25,660 nt of DNA from a virus. The notes under the pieces are model-generated. The model worked only from the letters and a program-made list of their open reading frames with translations. It had not been told where the DNA came from and searched no databases. Below, one piece after another: positions 15,376-20,173 of this stretch. The first letter of the stretch is position 1. The number at the start of each line of letters is the position of its first letter. The stretch spans positions 1-25,660 of the IMG/VR virus record IMGVR_UViG_3300020174_000060, one strand, 5' to 3'. A program made the position numbers and the translations under genes.

Positions 15376-17352
15376 CTACCTTCCTGGATAAACTGATACT
15401 TTATATTCTAAACCTAATAATGTAAGCTTTAACGGTGCGCTTTGCGTCACTGTTATCTGGCCATCATTATTATACCCCAATATACCATGTAATGTCTTTG
15501 TACCTGTAAACTCTGGAACTGGACTACCTAATGCTCCAGCACCTAAAGATCGAATAGGAACAAGATTACCGTTAATTACTAAGTTCTGTGTTTCTAAGAT
15601 TAATGCATTAACTTCTACAATACGTTTTTTAAATCCAATACGTGTACCTGTTTGTGTAGCCACTTCAATCGGCATGGTTTTAATCTCTACATCAATCGGC
15701 AATCCTACTTCACAAGATGTTGTTGGTGTATTGATAAATGTGACTGCACTGTCTGCTGTTTGATTTTCTTCTACATAACCATCTGATAACACATTCACTG
15801 TTTGTCCATCAATATGAGACATATCCAAACTAGCAACAGCACCACCTTGTTTTGCACAATCTGTTAAATAGTTACTATCAAAGACTTCAACATAGTATTT
15901 TAATGTACCACCATCATCACGTTCTACAATTGTATAAATATCAGTAATGTCAACACCTACGTCTAAGAACTTACCTTGTGTAGTAAACTCTGATGGGGCA
16001 ATAACATCTTGCGCACGAAGTAATGAGAATACAGCCATAGAGCCATCATCTTCATTGACAATCAATAACAGATCATTTTCGTCAGTAGCCACTGCACGAC
16101 GAATATCCATGTGCTTAGGACCTTTCAGTAAATGTCCAGCAAGCAATGAAATTTTAGATGTAATATAAGTTAATTGTGTATCAGAGTAAGCAATCTCAGA
16201 TAACTGTTTACCTTGTCTTTGTATAAATAACACACCAGATTCTAATTGTTTAACTCGCACACCTTCTCTAATACCATTACGTGATGTCGATGATAAAAAG
16301 AAATCATTTGGAGTGATCGGTGTTAATCCTTCTTGCGGAACATAGAATTCACCACCCGTCGTAAATACTTGCAAATCACGACCAGAAATAATGTCAACGA
16401 TAGCGTTAAAAGTATTAGTATCAAGAGTAGCCTCAACAGCGTCATCGTCTAGTCCTTCCACTGCTTCAAAGTCAAAATATAGACCTACTTTAGAACCCCA
16501 AATAGTTGATGGTCTTGATTTAGATCCGCCAAAGAATAATCTACCTTGATGAAATGTTACTGATCGTGGCCATCCTTTTGTTGCTGACCATACATCTTCA
16601 TAACCTGTTTCTAATTCCCATTGACCAGATGCAGTTGCTGTAGTGTCAAAGAATGGAAATTCAGTCACTGCGTTGACAGATGTAGAGCTGTTATATTTAA
16701 CTATTCTTGCTCGTCCTTGTGGACTAGCGTTAATGTATTGTCCAACATGTCCTGAGTTAAAGACTCCAGCCGATGCTGTTAATGTAATCTTGCCAGATAC
16801 ATCTGATGGTGTCAGCGTAGCAGCTGGATTAGTTGTAGTGATAGTAAATGCATACTGTGGTACAGAATCAAAAACTATATTAGAAATAGTCCATGATGCA
16901 TCATTGGCACCACGCACAATCTTGACTGGTTGTGCATCTTCATCAACAATAATTAAAGTATCAGCAGATTGTGTCCAGCATAAATGATCTAAATGATCTG
17001 ATGTTAATCCATATCCTGTGGTATCTAAGTAATCATTACCAGATGCATTAATGTTTGTAATAAGGACTTTATCTTTGTAAACATACATGCGATTGTTTGT
17101 GAAGCATAGCATGTAGCTATCATCAACTGAGAATTCAAAATGAACTAATCGTACACCATCAGCTGGAGTGCCACCTAATTCATTGATGAACTTAGTTCCC
17201 GGTCTGCGTTTAACGCCACCTTGAGGTTGACAAATAACATTACGAGCTGTCTCTAATGCATTTTGTCTAGCCTTTAAATCAACACGAGCTTTGAGAAGCG
17301 GATCTAACTCGCCTGTTGTAAAGTTAGTTTGTATGCTAACAAAACGTGCCAT
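15376..17352 (-). CDS. Tail tubular protein B (nozzle), gp12-like
   Basis: A 658-aa protein. The N-terminus carries the usual signature of this family (SIQTNFTTGELDPLLKARVD, then RNVICQPQGGVKRRPGTKF). A central RSVTFHQGRLFFGGSKSRPS repeats the canonical blade motif of the beta-propeller nozzle. T7 gp12 (794 aa) forms the lower tail tube and nozzle that carries the fibres. The start shares one base with the upstream tail tubular A stop (TAATG), so the pair is coupled. The protein ends within three bases of the gp14-like gene. The call is confident; the shorter length is typical of marine podoviruses. Confidence 0.9.
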   Translation of the reverse strand: MARFVSIQTNFTTGELDPLLKARVDLKARQNALETARNVICQPQGGVKRRPGTKFINELGGTPADGVRLVHFEFSVDDSYMLCFTNNRMYVYKDKVLITNINASGNDYLDTTGYGLTSDHLDHLCWTQSADTLIIVDEDAQPVKIVRGANDASWTISNIVFDSVPQYAFTITTTNPAATLTPSDVSGKITLTASAGVFNSGHVGQYINASPQGRARIVKYNSSTSVNAVTEFPFFDTTATASGQWELETGYEDVWSATKGWPRSVTFHQGRLFFGGSKSRPSTIWGSKVGLYFDFEAVEGLDDDAVEATLDTNTFNAIVDIISGRDLQVFTTGGEFYVPQEGLTPITPNDFFLSSTSRNGIREGVRVKQLESGVLFIQRQGKQLSEIAYSDTQLTYITSKISLLAGHLLKGPKHMDIRRAVATDENDLLLIVNEDDGSMAVFSLLRAQDVIAPSEFTTQGKFLDVGVDITDIYTIVERDDGGTLKYYVEVFDSNYLTDCAKQGGAVASLDMSHIDGQTVNVLSDGYVEENQTADSAVTFINTPTTSCEVGLPIDVEIKTMPIEVATQTGTRIGFKKRIVEVNALILETQNLVINGNLVPIRSLGAGALGSPVPEFTGTKTLHGILGYNNDGQITVTQSAPLKLTLLGLEYKVSVYPGR

Positions 17353-17966
17353 TAGTACCTCACGTTAATTAATGAGAAATCTTGTATCGCGTTTGTTGGG
17401 TTTCCTTGACCATCGATTGACATTGCTTGTCTCATATATCCACCACGACCATTTTCACTAGCTGTGCCTTCTGCAATGGTTCTCCAATATTCTGATTTGT
17501 CTGCTTGATCTGTAATCGGTAAAGCTAAATGCCAAGCCATTTCATATTTGAGTAATTGTACAAAGTAATGTGGTAATGCATATTCAGGTACATTGTATTG
17601 ATAATCAATGTATACGACTTCATAGTCTGTTAATAGTTTGTTCCCCATCAGACGAAACTCTCTGCGTGGAGGTGCGCCTACATCATCTGAATCATATACG
17701 GCATTCGGTCTGCCAATAATGTCAGAGGGTAGTTGATATTCATATTTGTATTCATTAGCCGGTGTTGTCACCAATCGAGCTAATTGTGTTTTCTTAAACG
17801 AGAATGACCAGTCATACAGAGTTAAAGCACGAATCTTAATGTCTGGATAAAGTCTATCGCAAATGTTAGATTCATCTGTACCTTCTGTAAATGATGATAT
17901 AGGATTTGCACCAAGCATCAATAATGCATCGGAACATATTTTAATATCGGTATCACCTGTAGCCAT
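17352..17966 (-). CDS. Tail tubular protein A (adaptor), gp11-like
   Basis: A 204-aa protein close to T7 gp11 (196 aa), the adaptor ring between portal and nozzle. I chose the ATG at 17966 (MATGDTDIKICSDALLMLGA) because AAAGGAAAG lies just before it. The frame remains open to an upstream ATG at 18008, but that reading would start inside the hairpin at 17991-18014. Characteristic features are the N-terminal ICSDALLMLGANPISS motif, W-S-F-S-F-K-K near 70 and the C-terminal DQADKSEYWRTIAE stretch. It is first after the hairpin, so its expression may be set lower than the capsid genes upstream. Confidence 0.9.
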   Translation of the reverse strand: MATGDTDIKICSDALLMLGANPISSFTEGTDESNICDRLYPDIKIRALTLYDWSFSFKKTQLARLVTTPANEYKYEYQLPSDIIGRPNAVYDSDDVGAPPRREFRLMGNKLLTDYEVVYIDYQYNVPEYALPHYFVQLLKYEMAWHLALPITDQADKSEYWRTIAEGTASENGRGGYMRQAMSIDGQGNPTNAIQDFSLINVRY

Positions 17967-17990
17967 TTTCTTTCCTTTAAATGTGCAAAT

Positions 17991-18014
17991 AGGTAGGCAC
18001 CGAAGCACCTACCT
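17991..18014 (-). terminator. UUCG-capped hairpin between decoration gene and tail gene (terminator or processing site)
   Basis: On the minus-strand transcript, arms of ten bases (AGGTAGGTGC and GTGCCTACCT) pair through seven perfect pairs, two G-U wobbles and a closing C-G. The loop is UUCG, the hyperstable cUUCGg tetraloop. The plus-strand copy would have two C-A mismatches and a CGAA loop, so the structure favours the coding-direction RNA. It is followed by ATTTGC, not a long U-run. Its position, after the capsid and decoration genes and before the gp11-like gene, matches T7 T-phi. It could be a partial terminator or an mRNA-stabilising or processing hairpin. Confidence 0.6.
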
Positions 18015-18033
18015 TTCTGCAATATATTACAAC

Positions 18034-18315
18034 TTAGTCAGCGTCTGCAACTGATAGTGCTGTACCGTCAGATACGTCAACTACGCCAGAAGCATTAGAA
18101 AGCACGACAACTAAAGATGCTGTAGGAACAGAAGCGTCCCATAAGTAAATTAAGTCGCCAACTTTTAATACGCTGTGTGCGTCATTGAAGTAAGCTGTTG
18201 TATTGATATCAGCAAGTGTATCAGTGTCTGGTGCTGTGTAGCTCCACATTTGAGGAGCATTACCAGCTTTAGCCTGACCACCTATTGGTTGTAGATTGTC
18301 TTTATTATAAGCCAT
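18034..18315 (-). CDS. Small head decoration-like protein
   Basis: A 93-aa protein lying 12 bases after the capsid gene, with AAGGAG upstream of its ATG. Beta strands and a V-G-D-L-I-Y-L-W-D motif, followed by T-A-S-L-V-V-V-L-S, resemble the small beta-barrel or fibre proteins that decorate heads in many marine podoviruses. The N-terminus carries MWSYTAPDTDTLADI. It is transcribed with the capsid gene and before the hairpin at 17991-18014, so it should be made in large amounts, as expected for a protein present in hundreds of copies. The exact family is not certain. Confidence 0.65.
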   Translation of the reverse strand: MAYNKDNLQPIGGQAKAGNAPQMWSYTAPDTDTLADINTTAYFNDAHSVLKVGDLIYLWDASVPTASLVVVLSNASGVVDVSDGTALSVADAD

Positions 18316-18327
18316 GTGTCATTCTCC

Positions 18328-19173
18328 TTAAGCTGATTCACGACATGTGATTTGAACAATACCTTCAGCATCGATTGCTACGGCACCAGCTGAGAACATT
18401 GAATTCACAAGGAATGATGTTTTTTCTGGAACGTAGTTAATCTCTGTCTTAGGACCCATACCTTCAGCATAACCAACTGCATCTTTGTGGAATGCCCAAA
18501 CAGTTCTGTCTAAAGAACCGTCAACAGCTAAACCACCTTCAGTTCTGTCGCCAAGTACGTGGAATGTGAAACCTAAGAATGTATTGATTTCACCAGATAC
18601 TAAAGCTTTAACTGAAGCATAATCAGAAGATGTAAGTTTTTGTTCTGCTAAGATTGATGCTAAAGAGTTAGCATGAATCACCATGTGACGATCTTGTGGA
18701 GGTACGTTACCTTTATCTAACAATTTCTTAGCTGAAAGAAGTTTGTCTAAGTTAAGGTTTGTATCTGTACCACCAATGTCGTTTGACACAGTGTTTGATG
18801 TTGATGATGCTGTTAATGCATCAATAACAAGTTGGTCTTGACGGCGACCAATAGCATTAGCCACAACTTGCACTAATTCTTGTCTTTCGTCAAAGTTAAC
18901 TTTTTGTTGCATGAAGATGTCAGAATATTCTGCTGCATTCCAATCTTCTAGTGTTGCTGTTACTTGTGAGAAATCCACATTTAACGGTGTTACGTCTGTT
19001 TGTGGAATACGTAATGTTGCTACGCCTTTACCCACTTTAGGAAATTTTGCTGTTGAACCCTCAACGCCGCGTCTTTGTCTTACTGCTGCAATAAGCTGTG
19101 CTTTAGCTTGGTAAGCCTGTTTAACTTCGGCATCAAATAGGGTAACAAAAGCATTAGATAATCCAATAGCCAT
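18328..19173 (-). CDS. Major capsid protein
   Basis: A 281-aa protein in the standard position, directly after the scaffold. The N-terminus (MAIGLSNAFVTLFDAEVKQAY) is followed by RQRRGVEGSTAKFPKVGKG, and by the V-Q-V-V-A-N-A-I-G-R-R-Q-D-Q helix that precedes the A-domain-like region. An HK97-like fold is inferred, not shown. T7 gp10A is longer (345 aa); the shorter form is common in HMO-2011-like phages. The ribosome site AAGGAG (minus strand of 19180-19185) is strong, as expected for the most abundant protein. It has its own leader of 181 bases with several hairpins and a possible promoter. Confidence 0.9.
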   Translation of the reverse strand: MAIGLSNAFVTLFDAEVKQAYQAKAQLIAAVRQRRGVEGSTAKFPKVGKGVATLRIPQTDVTPLNVDFSQVTATLEDWNAAEYSDIFMQQKVNFDERQELVQVVANAIGRRQDQLVIDALTASSTSNTVSNDIGGTDTNLNLDKLLSAKKLLDKGNVPPQDRHMVIHANSLASILAEQKLTSSDYASVKALVSGEINTFLGFTFHVLGDRTEGGLAVDGSLDRTVWAFHKDAVGYAEGMGPKTEINYVPEKTSFLVNSMFSAGAVAIDAEGIVQITCRESA

Positions 19174-19354
19174 TTGAGACTCCTTAGTAATTAATAAAGT
19201 AAATTAATCGCTGTGGTATGCCAGAATAATCTGGGCCTTGCTTGCTATTTACGATAGCCGGTCGACAAGATTACTTGCGTTTAAGGGTTACATAGAATAA
19301 TGTAATAGGCCTTAGTGTGAATATTACCACAAAAAGGCCTGAATTACAAGAGAT
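19174..19354 (-). promoter_or_regulatory. Hairpin-rich leader between scaffold and capsid genes
   Basis: This is the largest non-coding gap in the window. Five inverted repeats are visible: 19307-19340 (seven-base arms AGGCCTT/AAGGCCT with an inner TGTG/CACA), 19288-19305 (TTACAT/ATGTAA), 19244-19258 (GCTAT/ATAGC), 19221-19234 (CCAGA/TCTGG) and 19190-19208 (ATTAAT/ATTAAT). None has a clear U-run after it, so a simple terminator is unlikely. The last one lies only a few bases from the capsid ribosome site and could modulate access. Arrangement as a structured 5' leader or RNase processing region is inferred. Confidence 0.5.
19321..19349 (-). promoter_or_regulatory. Possible sigma70-type promoter for the capsid gene
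   Basis: On the minus strand, TTGTAA (19344-19349) and TAATAT (19321-19326) are 17 bases apart, each matching four of six consensus bases. A start would fall near 19314, inside the first hairpin. The same stretch continues as TTCACACTAAGG, which resembles a T7-family RNA polymerase core (CACTA then GG), so the two readings compete. AT-rich DNA gives such hits by chance; the support is position before the most heavily expressed gene. Confidence 0.3.
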
Positions 19355-20173
19355 TTAGCCGTAGACTTGCTGGAATGCTCGTTCTACTTTGGCTCGGTAG
19401 GATGGATCTGTTTGATACTTAGGATCTGCAACTAACTGTTGCAATTCGTCTTTAGATGGTGTACCGTCTACTGGAGTTACTTCTGTAGGAATACGTCCTT
19501 CATAAGATGCTCTAAGCTTTTCTAATGCAGCAATACCTTTTGCAGTACCGCCCATGATTTTAAACTCTTCAAAGTCATCTGATGACCATACACCTTTTTG
19601 AACAAGACCAGCTCCCCATTTAACCATGCCTTGAATACGTGCATCGGCATTAGGGCCTAACATTTTCTTTTCTTGTTCTACGTTGACCGATGCTTCTTTT
19701 GCACCCATCATTTGCATATCAACTACTTGACCAACTAAATCATCAAGAGCAGCTTGACTGACTTGATATTCTTTTGCCCAACTCATGACATGATTACGTA
19801 CTGGATCATCTTCTGCAATTTCACCAAATGCTGAAGTATCATAGTTCCCATCAGCTGGTGCTTTGTGTTTACCTTGAGAAATCTGCTTACGCAAATCTTT
19901 CCAAGACTTAGCCATACCTTCTAAATCAGGTGCTGAGTCTTCTGCTTTCCAAAAGTTCTCAGGCCACCAATCAGGTCGCTCTAATGGTTCATCATCTTCA
20001 CCCGCTTCTTTAACAGCAAATTCTTCCTTTGCTTTTAATTCTGCTGGATCACGATGATCTATTTCTGTTGCTTGAGGATTTACTTCTGTTGTTTCTTCTG
20101 GCTCTGCTGATGCTCCATCGAGTAGGCCAGTGGATTCAGTTTCCTGAATACTAGGCTCGATTGTATCACTCAT
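19355..20173 (-). CDS. Scaffolding protein
   Basis: A 272-aa very acidic protein between portal and capsid, as in T7 (gp9, 307 aa). The first 85 residues are Glu/Asp/Pro-rich and probably disordered, with RPDWWPENFWK at about 67-77. The middle is helical (motif ALDDLVGQVVDMQMMG). The C-terminus ends with DPKYQTDPSYRAKVERAFQQVYG-type residues seen in related scaffolds. It guides capsid assembly and is absent from mature heads. It starts in a TAATG overlap with the Bbp19-like gene and is followed by the hairpin-rich leader. Confidence 0.85.
   Translation of the reverse strand: MSDTIEPSIQETESTGLLDGASAEPEETTEVNPQATEIDHRDPAELKAKEEFAVKEAGEDDEPLERPDWWPENFWKAEDSAPDLEGMAKSWKDLRKQISQGKHKAPADGNYDTSAFGEIAEDDPVRNHVMSWAKEYQVSQAALDDLVGQVVDMQMMGAKEASVNVEQEKKMLGPNADARIQGMVKWGAGLVQKGVWSSDDFEEFKIMGGTAKGIAALEKLRASYEGRIPTEVTPVDGTPSKDELQQLVADPKYQTDPSYRAKVERAFQQVYG

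Follow-up and report, generated by a model that had tools for sequence, protein, structure and literature searches.

We propose that the major capsid protein gene in this viral record belongs to a dedicated transcription unit controlled from the 181-nt gap upstream of it. The gap would carry a 5′ UTR anchored at its own predicted transcription start (+1) and insulated from upstream transcription; this is our best reading of the sequence. That the gap consists of a promoter followed by a covarying structured leader we regard as nearly certain, and to the explanation as a whole, a dedicated capsid unit in which a structured, +1-anchored leader serves as stabiliser or enhancer, we assign a probability of about 0.5. 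The leader RNA has no family match in Rfam 15: at the gathering threshold there were no matches in the window or in seven loci, and searches of three leaders with lax E-values gave only far sub-threshold matches. No tRNA was found in the gap. Such an RNA is not described in the literature searched, but an earlier description may exist elsewhere.

Promoter, predicted start and leader anatomy

The window, which is the whole 25,660-bp viral record, contains the gap at exactly 19174–19354, between the capsid ORF and the assembly-protein ORF. The nearest annotated phage, MEP301 of the OM43 clade, is 76.9% identical in DNA over the two genes and the gap, and its counterpart gap measures 184 nt. Gap lengths of 175–271 nt were found in 68 of 80 IMG/VR relatives; two deviated (L033, 9 nt; L054, 83 nt), and in 10 of the 80 the script did not locate the end of the upstream ORF. 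The original prediction, made from the letters of the window, had described five short inverted repeats in a capsid leader. Inverted repeats are indeed present within the 181 bases, and we located six, the sixth (19203–19209/19189–19195) being weaker. They are real, but they do not form five equivalent hairpins: the gap resolves into a promoter spanned by one hairpin and a structured 5′ UTR, with the following features.

19355–20173, minus strand: assembly-protein ORF, upstream neighbour of the 181-nt gap
19320–19349, minus strand: sigma70-like promoter, with −35 TTGTAA (19344–19349), an 18-nt spacer and −10 AATATT (19320–19325)
19321–19326, minus strand: alternative −10 of this promoter, TAATAT, with a spacer of 17
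19307–19340, minus strand: promoter-spanning hairpin, arms 19307–19319/19328–19340
19313, minus strand: predicted transcription start, the first A of AAGGC, placed by −10 spacing
19283–19313, minus strand: hairpin A, made of P1 (19310–19313/19283–19286) and P2 (19300–19305/19288–19293, repeat TTACAT/ATGTAA)
19306–19309 (CCTA) opposite 19287 (C), minus strand: 4x1 internal loop of hairpin A
19263–19279, minus strand: hairpin P3, CAAG/CTTG (19274–19277/19266–19269), with a possible extension (19278–19279/19263–19264)
19244–19258, minus strand: hairpin P4, GCTAT/ATAGC (19254–19258/19244–19248), with a CGTAA loop
19239–19243, minus strand: AAGCA box, directly after P4
19215–19237, minus strand: hairpin P5, outer 19236–19237/19215–19216 and inner CCAGA/TCTGG (19230–19234/19221–19225)
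19235 (C) opposite 19217–19220 (CATA), minus strand: 1x4 internal loop of hairpin P5
19189–19209, minus strand: AT-rich hairpin before the Shine–Dalgarno sequence, GATTAAT/ATTAATT (19203–19209/19189–19195), clade-specific and weak
19180–19185, minus strand: Shine–Dalgarno sequence AAGGAG, read from the sequence
18328–19173, minus strand: major capsid protein gene (phrog_3437, E = 5e-57)

The promoter recurs at a nearly fixed distance from the structured RNA. We scanned the 66 of 67 representatives that had enough flank, and in 58 a distance of 6 or 7 nt separates the end of the best −10 from the core (AAGG); the starts of L309 and L312 lie about 9 nt off. The mean promoter score was 8.23, compared with 6.02 (s.d. 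0.14) for mononucleotide-shuffled flanks, and the window's own score of 8 is middling among the representatives. At 21 distant loci the score was 8.57 versus 6.76 after shuffling, with the −10 at 6 or 7 nt in 14 of the 21 and more scatter. It is this −10 spacing, together with a pyrimidine at base −1 in 62 of the 66 representatives, that makes the first base of the RNA the predicted +1. The relevant part of the description of MEP301 (PMC8024684) reports no identified RNA or DNA polymerase gene, and the promoter of the capsid leader is therefore likely to be read by the host polymerase.

From the predicted +1 (19313, minus strand) to the capsid ATG, the structured 5′ UTR measures 140 nt and contains four hairpins. 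Hairpin A and P5 carry the same internal loop, four bases facing one, in opposite orientation. In the 85 close relatives of alignment A2 (defined below), the loop of hairpin A reads C..A in 83 and has the opposing C in all 85, and both twin loops read C..A in 81, again with the opposing C in 85; in the distant set the four-base strand is mostly GATA, ATAA or ACAA. A descriptor search for the twin loops found them in 83 of 142 sequences, compared with 25 after shuffling and 30 in the opposite orientation (142 sequences in each case), which is mild support only, since a same-orientation form (71) and a form with one pair opened (80) also scored. P4 is paired in 95.8% of A2 cells, and the AAG of the AAGCA box is invariant in A2. 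The third outer pair of P5 fails in 38 of 85 sequences and in the window, and the extension pair adjoining P3 is unpaired in 14 of 54 sequences of alignment A1 and 23 of 85 in A2. Covariation of the A-T/C-G kind also links the base preceding P3 with the first loop base of that hairpin (A2 columns 63/71, A1 columns 39/46); it could reflect tertiary pairing or no more than a division between clades, as the change mostly separates two of them.

Two related A/T segments in loops had also been predicted. The shared segment, AGAATAAT, does occur at 19223–19230 and 19294–19301, within and next to the loops of two hairpins, and most aligned relatives do not have both copies. The AT-rich hairpin before the Shine–Dalgarno sequence was rejected as a feature of the family, as this tail folds no better than shuffled sequence (mean z −0.11; 6 of 67 below −1.5).

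Covariation, folding energy and distribution

Pairing was counted in A1, a sequence-only alignment of 54 leaders, and in A2, an alignment fitted to the structure that holds 85 distinct matches to R1, a model built from A1. In A1, 94.1% of cells are paired (79.7% with the 3′ letters shuffled), 18 of 26 pairs changed on both sides, and covariation is 0.432 versus 0.162 shuffled and 0.021–0.120 with slid partners, figures that favour the structure because 13 of the 67 representatives (11 with unusual helices, plus L140 and L304) were left out before pair counting. The R1 search recovered the representatives left out, and with these included A2 has 94.7% of cells paired, changes in both partners at 21 of 26 pairs and a covariation of 0.478 versus 0.163 shuffled, the shuffle controls in both alignments taking no account of relatedness. 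For one of five measures in A1, further pair types, 67 of 500 shuffles did as well. In a blind mutual-information scan of A1, covering 8685 column pairs, structural pairs took ranks 1–5 and made up 8 of the 10 and 11 of the 30 best-scoring pairs. P1 is nearly invariant in close relatives; in the distant set (21 distinct sequences from the loci L420–L499, in an alignment fitted to the structure) both partners have changed at all four P1 pairs, and 98.8% of cells are paired. An anchor rule was failed by two of 170 distinct leaders, L054 and L179, neither of which begins with AAGG, yet R1 matches both. These comparisons strongly support the predicted structured capsid leader, in which pairing of the downstream RNA is kept by compensatory change, and conservation of pairing among relatives, one of the checks that the original prediction had offered, is clear.

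Folding energy, which the original prediction had offered as a check, gave a divided answer. The 181 nt as a whole fold better than dinucleotide shuffles on the minus strand (z = −3.93; 0 of 200 shuffles as good) and on the plus strand (z = −2.65; 0 of 200), but the part downstream of the predicted start does not stand out: z is −1.65 for the 140 nt from +1 (16 of 200 as good) and −2.02 for the 99 nt from +1 to the end of P5 (8 of 200). Over 67 representatives the latter segment has a mean z of −0.22, with only two below −2. Minimum free energy was thus rejected as proof of the leader core, as the +1-started part is not unusually stable. The signal sits in the promoter hairpin (19306–19341 by itself, z = −5.16), which makes covariation the decisive evidence for the downstream RNA. 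Nor is the consensus fold the energy optimum, costing 6.3 kcal/mol on average over 85 sequences; in RNA modelled from +1, the mean probability of P1 was 0.31 in 16 leaders classed as short and 0.19 in 50 others, and the window's own optimal structure from +1 contains P2, P3, P4 and the inner P5, with the P1 bases engaged in other pairs. The energy cost and the absence of P1 from that fold suggest either that energy rules underrate the internal loops or that a partner holds the fold.

The leader accompanies this type of capsid gene. R1 was searched in 93 sources (the window and 92 loci) chosen to avoid repeats, and matched 87, of which 54 are its training sequences; every match ends at a capsid start, and every close relative searched has the leader (87 of 87). 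There was no R1 match in L330–L335, whose capsids are far more distant. Model R2 was searched at E ≤ 1 in 75 of 84 loci (L336–L419), 74 of 80 (L420–L499) and 60 of 80 (L500–L579) together with L330–L335, and gave 41 matches over 75 sources, 27 over 74 and 5 over 66, many of the weak ones not being significant individually. These end at the capsid start codon in 38 of 41, 25 of 27 and 5 of 5 cases; in L456 and L462 the match stops one codon short of the start that the protein match indicates, and the matches in L359, L373 and L374 (2859–3021) lie elsewhere and look like chance. Degenerate forms of the leader occur in more distant relatives. Two pattern scans returned at least 119 loci, of which 117 were examined (L030 and L046 were left out), and at least 120, of which all 120 listed were examined; among the matches listed, 112 of 117 and 117 of 120 precede a recognisable capsid start. 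The eight other loci include L085, L193 and L604, which match R2, L600 and L630, which do not, and L092, L136 and L186, which end at a contig end.

Several further leaders bear a resemblance by eye. L337 and L338 are MAG contigs labelled Alphaproteobacteria and Flavobacteriaceae, whose capsids share 68% and 56% identity with the L077 capsid; their leaders contain similar boxes and have no R1 or R2 match. L339 had no model match. In the leaders of L330 and L500, which precede capsids of the Dunaliella viridis virus SI2 type, boxes reading CAAGC and GGCCC can be made out by eye; these leaders have no R2 match and are possibly a further diverged form.

Proposed insulation from read-through and possible end of the capsid unit

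The original prediction had placed all the repeats in the capsid leader. One of them spans the promoter, and because RNA started at 19313 cannot form it, this hairpin is possible only in read-through RNA. Its 3′ arm includes the AAGGC that is also needed for helix P1. In counts of per-sequence stem scores, a stem in fixed register at the promoter scored at least 8 in 13 of 24 short leaders (shuffled, 2 of 480) and in none of 25 long leaders (shuffled, 1 of 500); a looser search gave a score of at least 13 in 29 of 164 leaders, near-copies included, versus 0 of 164. Among 55 distinct leaders, an intrinsic terminator precedes the promoter in all 28 long ones and in one of 27 short ones. In modelled read-through RNA the mean probability of P1 fell to 0.01 in 16 short leaders and was 0.28 in 50 others. 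We infer that the terminator and the promoter-spanning hairpin both reserve the leader for RNA started at the promoter. In L179 (2247–2385, minus strand) the terminator stem joins ACCCTT directly, without the promoter and the AAGG arm, through either a real deletion or an assembly join.

A search for a G+C-rich hairpin followed by a T run between the predicted +1 and the capsid gene found none in 168 leaders, and none on the minus strand of the window's own leader, so that a terminator or attenuator within the leader was rejected. The absence of such an intrinsic terminator also makes the predicted independent small RNA unlikely, unless the mRNA is cut.

Beyond the capsid gene, strong terminators are rare. 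None lies within 150 nt of the capsid end at 63 loci, five in total were found over 150,986 nt downstream of the capsid (at 335–347 nt, in 5 of 67 representatives), and by our own terminator rule the capsid reading direction in the window runs on for about 18 kb without one. The capsid unit may be closed by the following element.

17984–18021, minus strand: hairpin after the small ORF (18034–18315) behind the capsid gene, a possible weak terminator or processing site

A hairpin scoring at least 11 occurs behind this small ORF at 57 of 64 loci, compared with 0 of 64 shuffled, with a mean of three T within the next six bases. The next ORF (17352–18008, minus strand), at the position that the gene for tail tubular protein A occupies in MEP301, has its listed GTG start inside this hairpin. 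An in-frame ATG at 17964–17966, with AAAGGAAAGAAA before it, looks like the better start and gives 615 nt, equal to the length of the MEP301 gene.

Candidate roles of the leader

The capsid unit of T7 gene 10, which has a promoter of its own and a downstream terminator, resembles the unit proposed here; it uses the phage polymerase, unlike the host-polymerase reading of the present promoter. We know of no such structured RNA in the T7 gene 10 unit, and structured capsid-gene leaders are, to our knowledge, little known in tailed phages. In the mechanism that we put first, host RNA polymerase would start at the sigma70-like promoter, with +1 as the first base of a structured RNA that extends to the capsid Shine–Dalgarno sequence. 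The upstream side would be guarded by a terminator in the long-leader clade and by the promoter-spanning hairpin in much of the window's clade. The leader would act in cis, and only in +1-started RNA, where base 1 is presumably paired in P1, and the folded 5′ end would yield a longer-lived or better-used capsid mRNA and hence more capsid than neighbouring proteins. The specific step in which a folded and probably protein-bound 5′ end raises the life or use of the mRNA is a tentative suggestion, to which we give somewhat less than even odds.

Stabilisation, a protein operator and antitermination of the put kind all fit the data, and we place the stabiliser or enhancer first without strong preference. 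As a translational operator, the leader would bind the capsid or assembly protein at its twin internal loops and so repress or activate capsid translation in the course of assembly. A loop present twice would be suited to a dimeric protein or one with two binding sites, conservation at several unpaired positions equals that of the helices, and the RNA match weakens or disappears with more distant capsids; there is also precedent in T4, where gp32 regulates its own leader by way of a pseudoknot (PMC3014915). Against an operator, forcing the consensus fold shifts pairing of the Shine–Dalgarno sequence inconsistently, with a fall of more than 0.1 in 17 of 85 sequences and a rise in 4. Mean pairing of that sequence is 0.69 free and 0.66 with the fold forced, which speaks against the translational control originally suggested insofar as it would work by hiding the Shine–Dalgarno sequence. 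We consider an operator improbable overall, at about one chance in four. Of the other roles originally suggested, processing and stability may still apply. A riboswitch or thermosensor sequestering the Shine–Dalgarno sequence, or an anti-Shine–Dalgarno switch, was rejected, mean pairing with the CCCT stretch being only 0.02–0.07.

A slightly less probable alternative is that the nascent leader binds host RNA polymerase, as put RNA does, and makes it resist terminators and pauses across a long structural operon. The start of the leader at the predicted +1 fits this, as HK022 putL, which works without a dedicated protein, is situated immediately after its promoter (PMC9378689), and so do the long terminator-free run in the window, the hairpin after the next small ORF and the few strong terminators 335–347 nt behind the capsid gene. 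On the other side, the leader has more helices than put, the models match only once in the window and once in the 32-kb part of MEP301 examined, antitermination does not require restriction to one capsid type, and most loci have no strong downstream terminator to overcome. That only the promoter and the read-through hairpin matter, through processing of the RNase III type or as an operator, with the rest a passive spacer, is very improbable: the hairpin carries the window's energy signal and recurs in the short-leader clade, but it is found in none of 25 long leaders, and covariation across P2–P5, which points to selection on the downstream RNA, speaks strongly against this reading.

Several known systems, as far as the cited sections describe them, can be compared with the leader. 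HK022 putL and putR are folded phage RNAs that act in cis, and putL lies directly, and putR about 270 nt, downstream of a host-polymerase promoter, just as the leader follows a promoter-like element and predicted start; put, of about 70 nt and two stem-loops, binds the zinc-binding domain of the RNA polymerase beta′ subunit and suppresses termination, whereas the leader has about 100 nt, six helices and four hairpins and precedes a capsid gene (PMC9378689). The T4 gene 32 operator is also a structured phage mRNA leader upstream of a start codon, with a gp32-bound pseudoknot in place of hairpins with two internal loops (PMC3014915). The manA and wcaG motifs, structured RNAs too, came out of comparative genomics and are known mostly from marine metagenomes, but from phages as well; they lie near metabolic and other non-structural genes, and the main text describing them does not use the word ‘capsid’ (PMC2864571). 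The twin loops may resemble the C-loop, an asymmetric internal loop that is often C-first in its longer strand (PMC8983868); the loops of the distant members are mostly not C-first.

The leader could also represent a new phage RNA class, marked by two inverted 4x1 loops, that sets capsid output as nascent RNA from +1 by binding either a phage structural protein or the host RNA polymerase. It would fold correctly only where upstream transcription is excluded, by a terminator in one clade and by a decoy hairpin across the promoter in the other, an idea we hold to be unlikely. As the leader precedes the capsid gene of MEP301, a cultured phage of an OM43 bacterium, its function is open to experiment. 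The terminator of one clade and the promoter-spanning hairpin of the other would be distinct solutions to the problem of shielding one leader from read-through.
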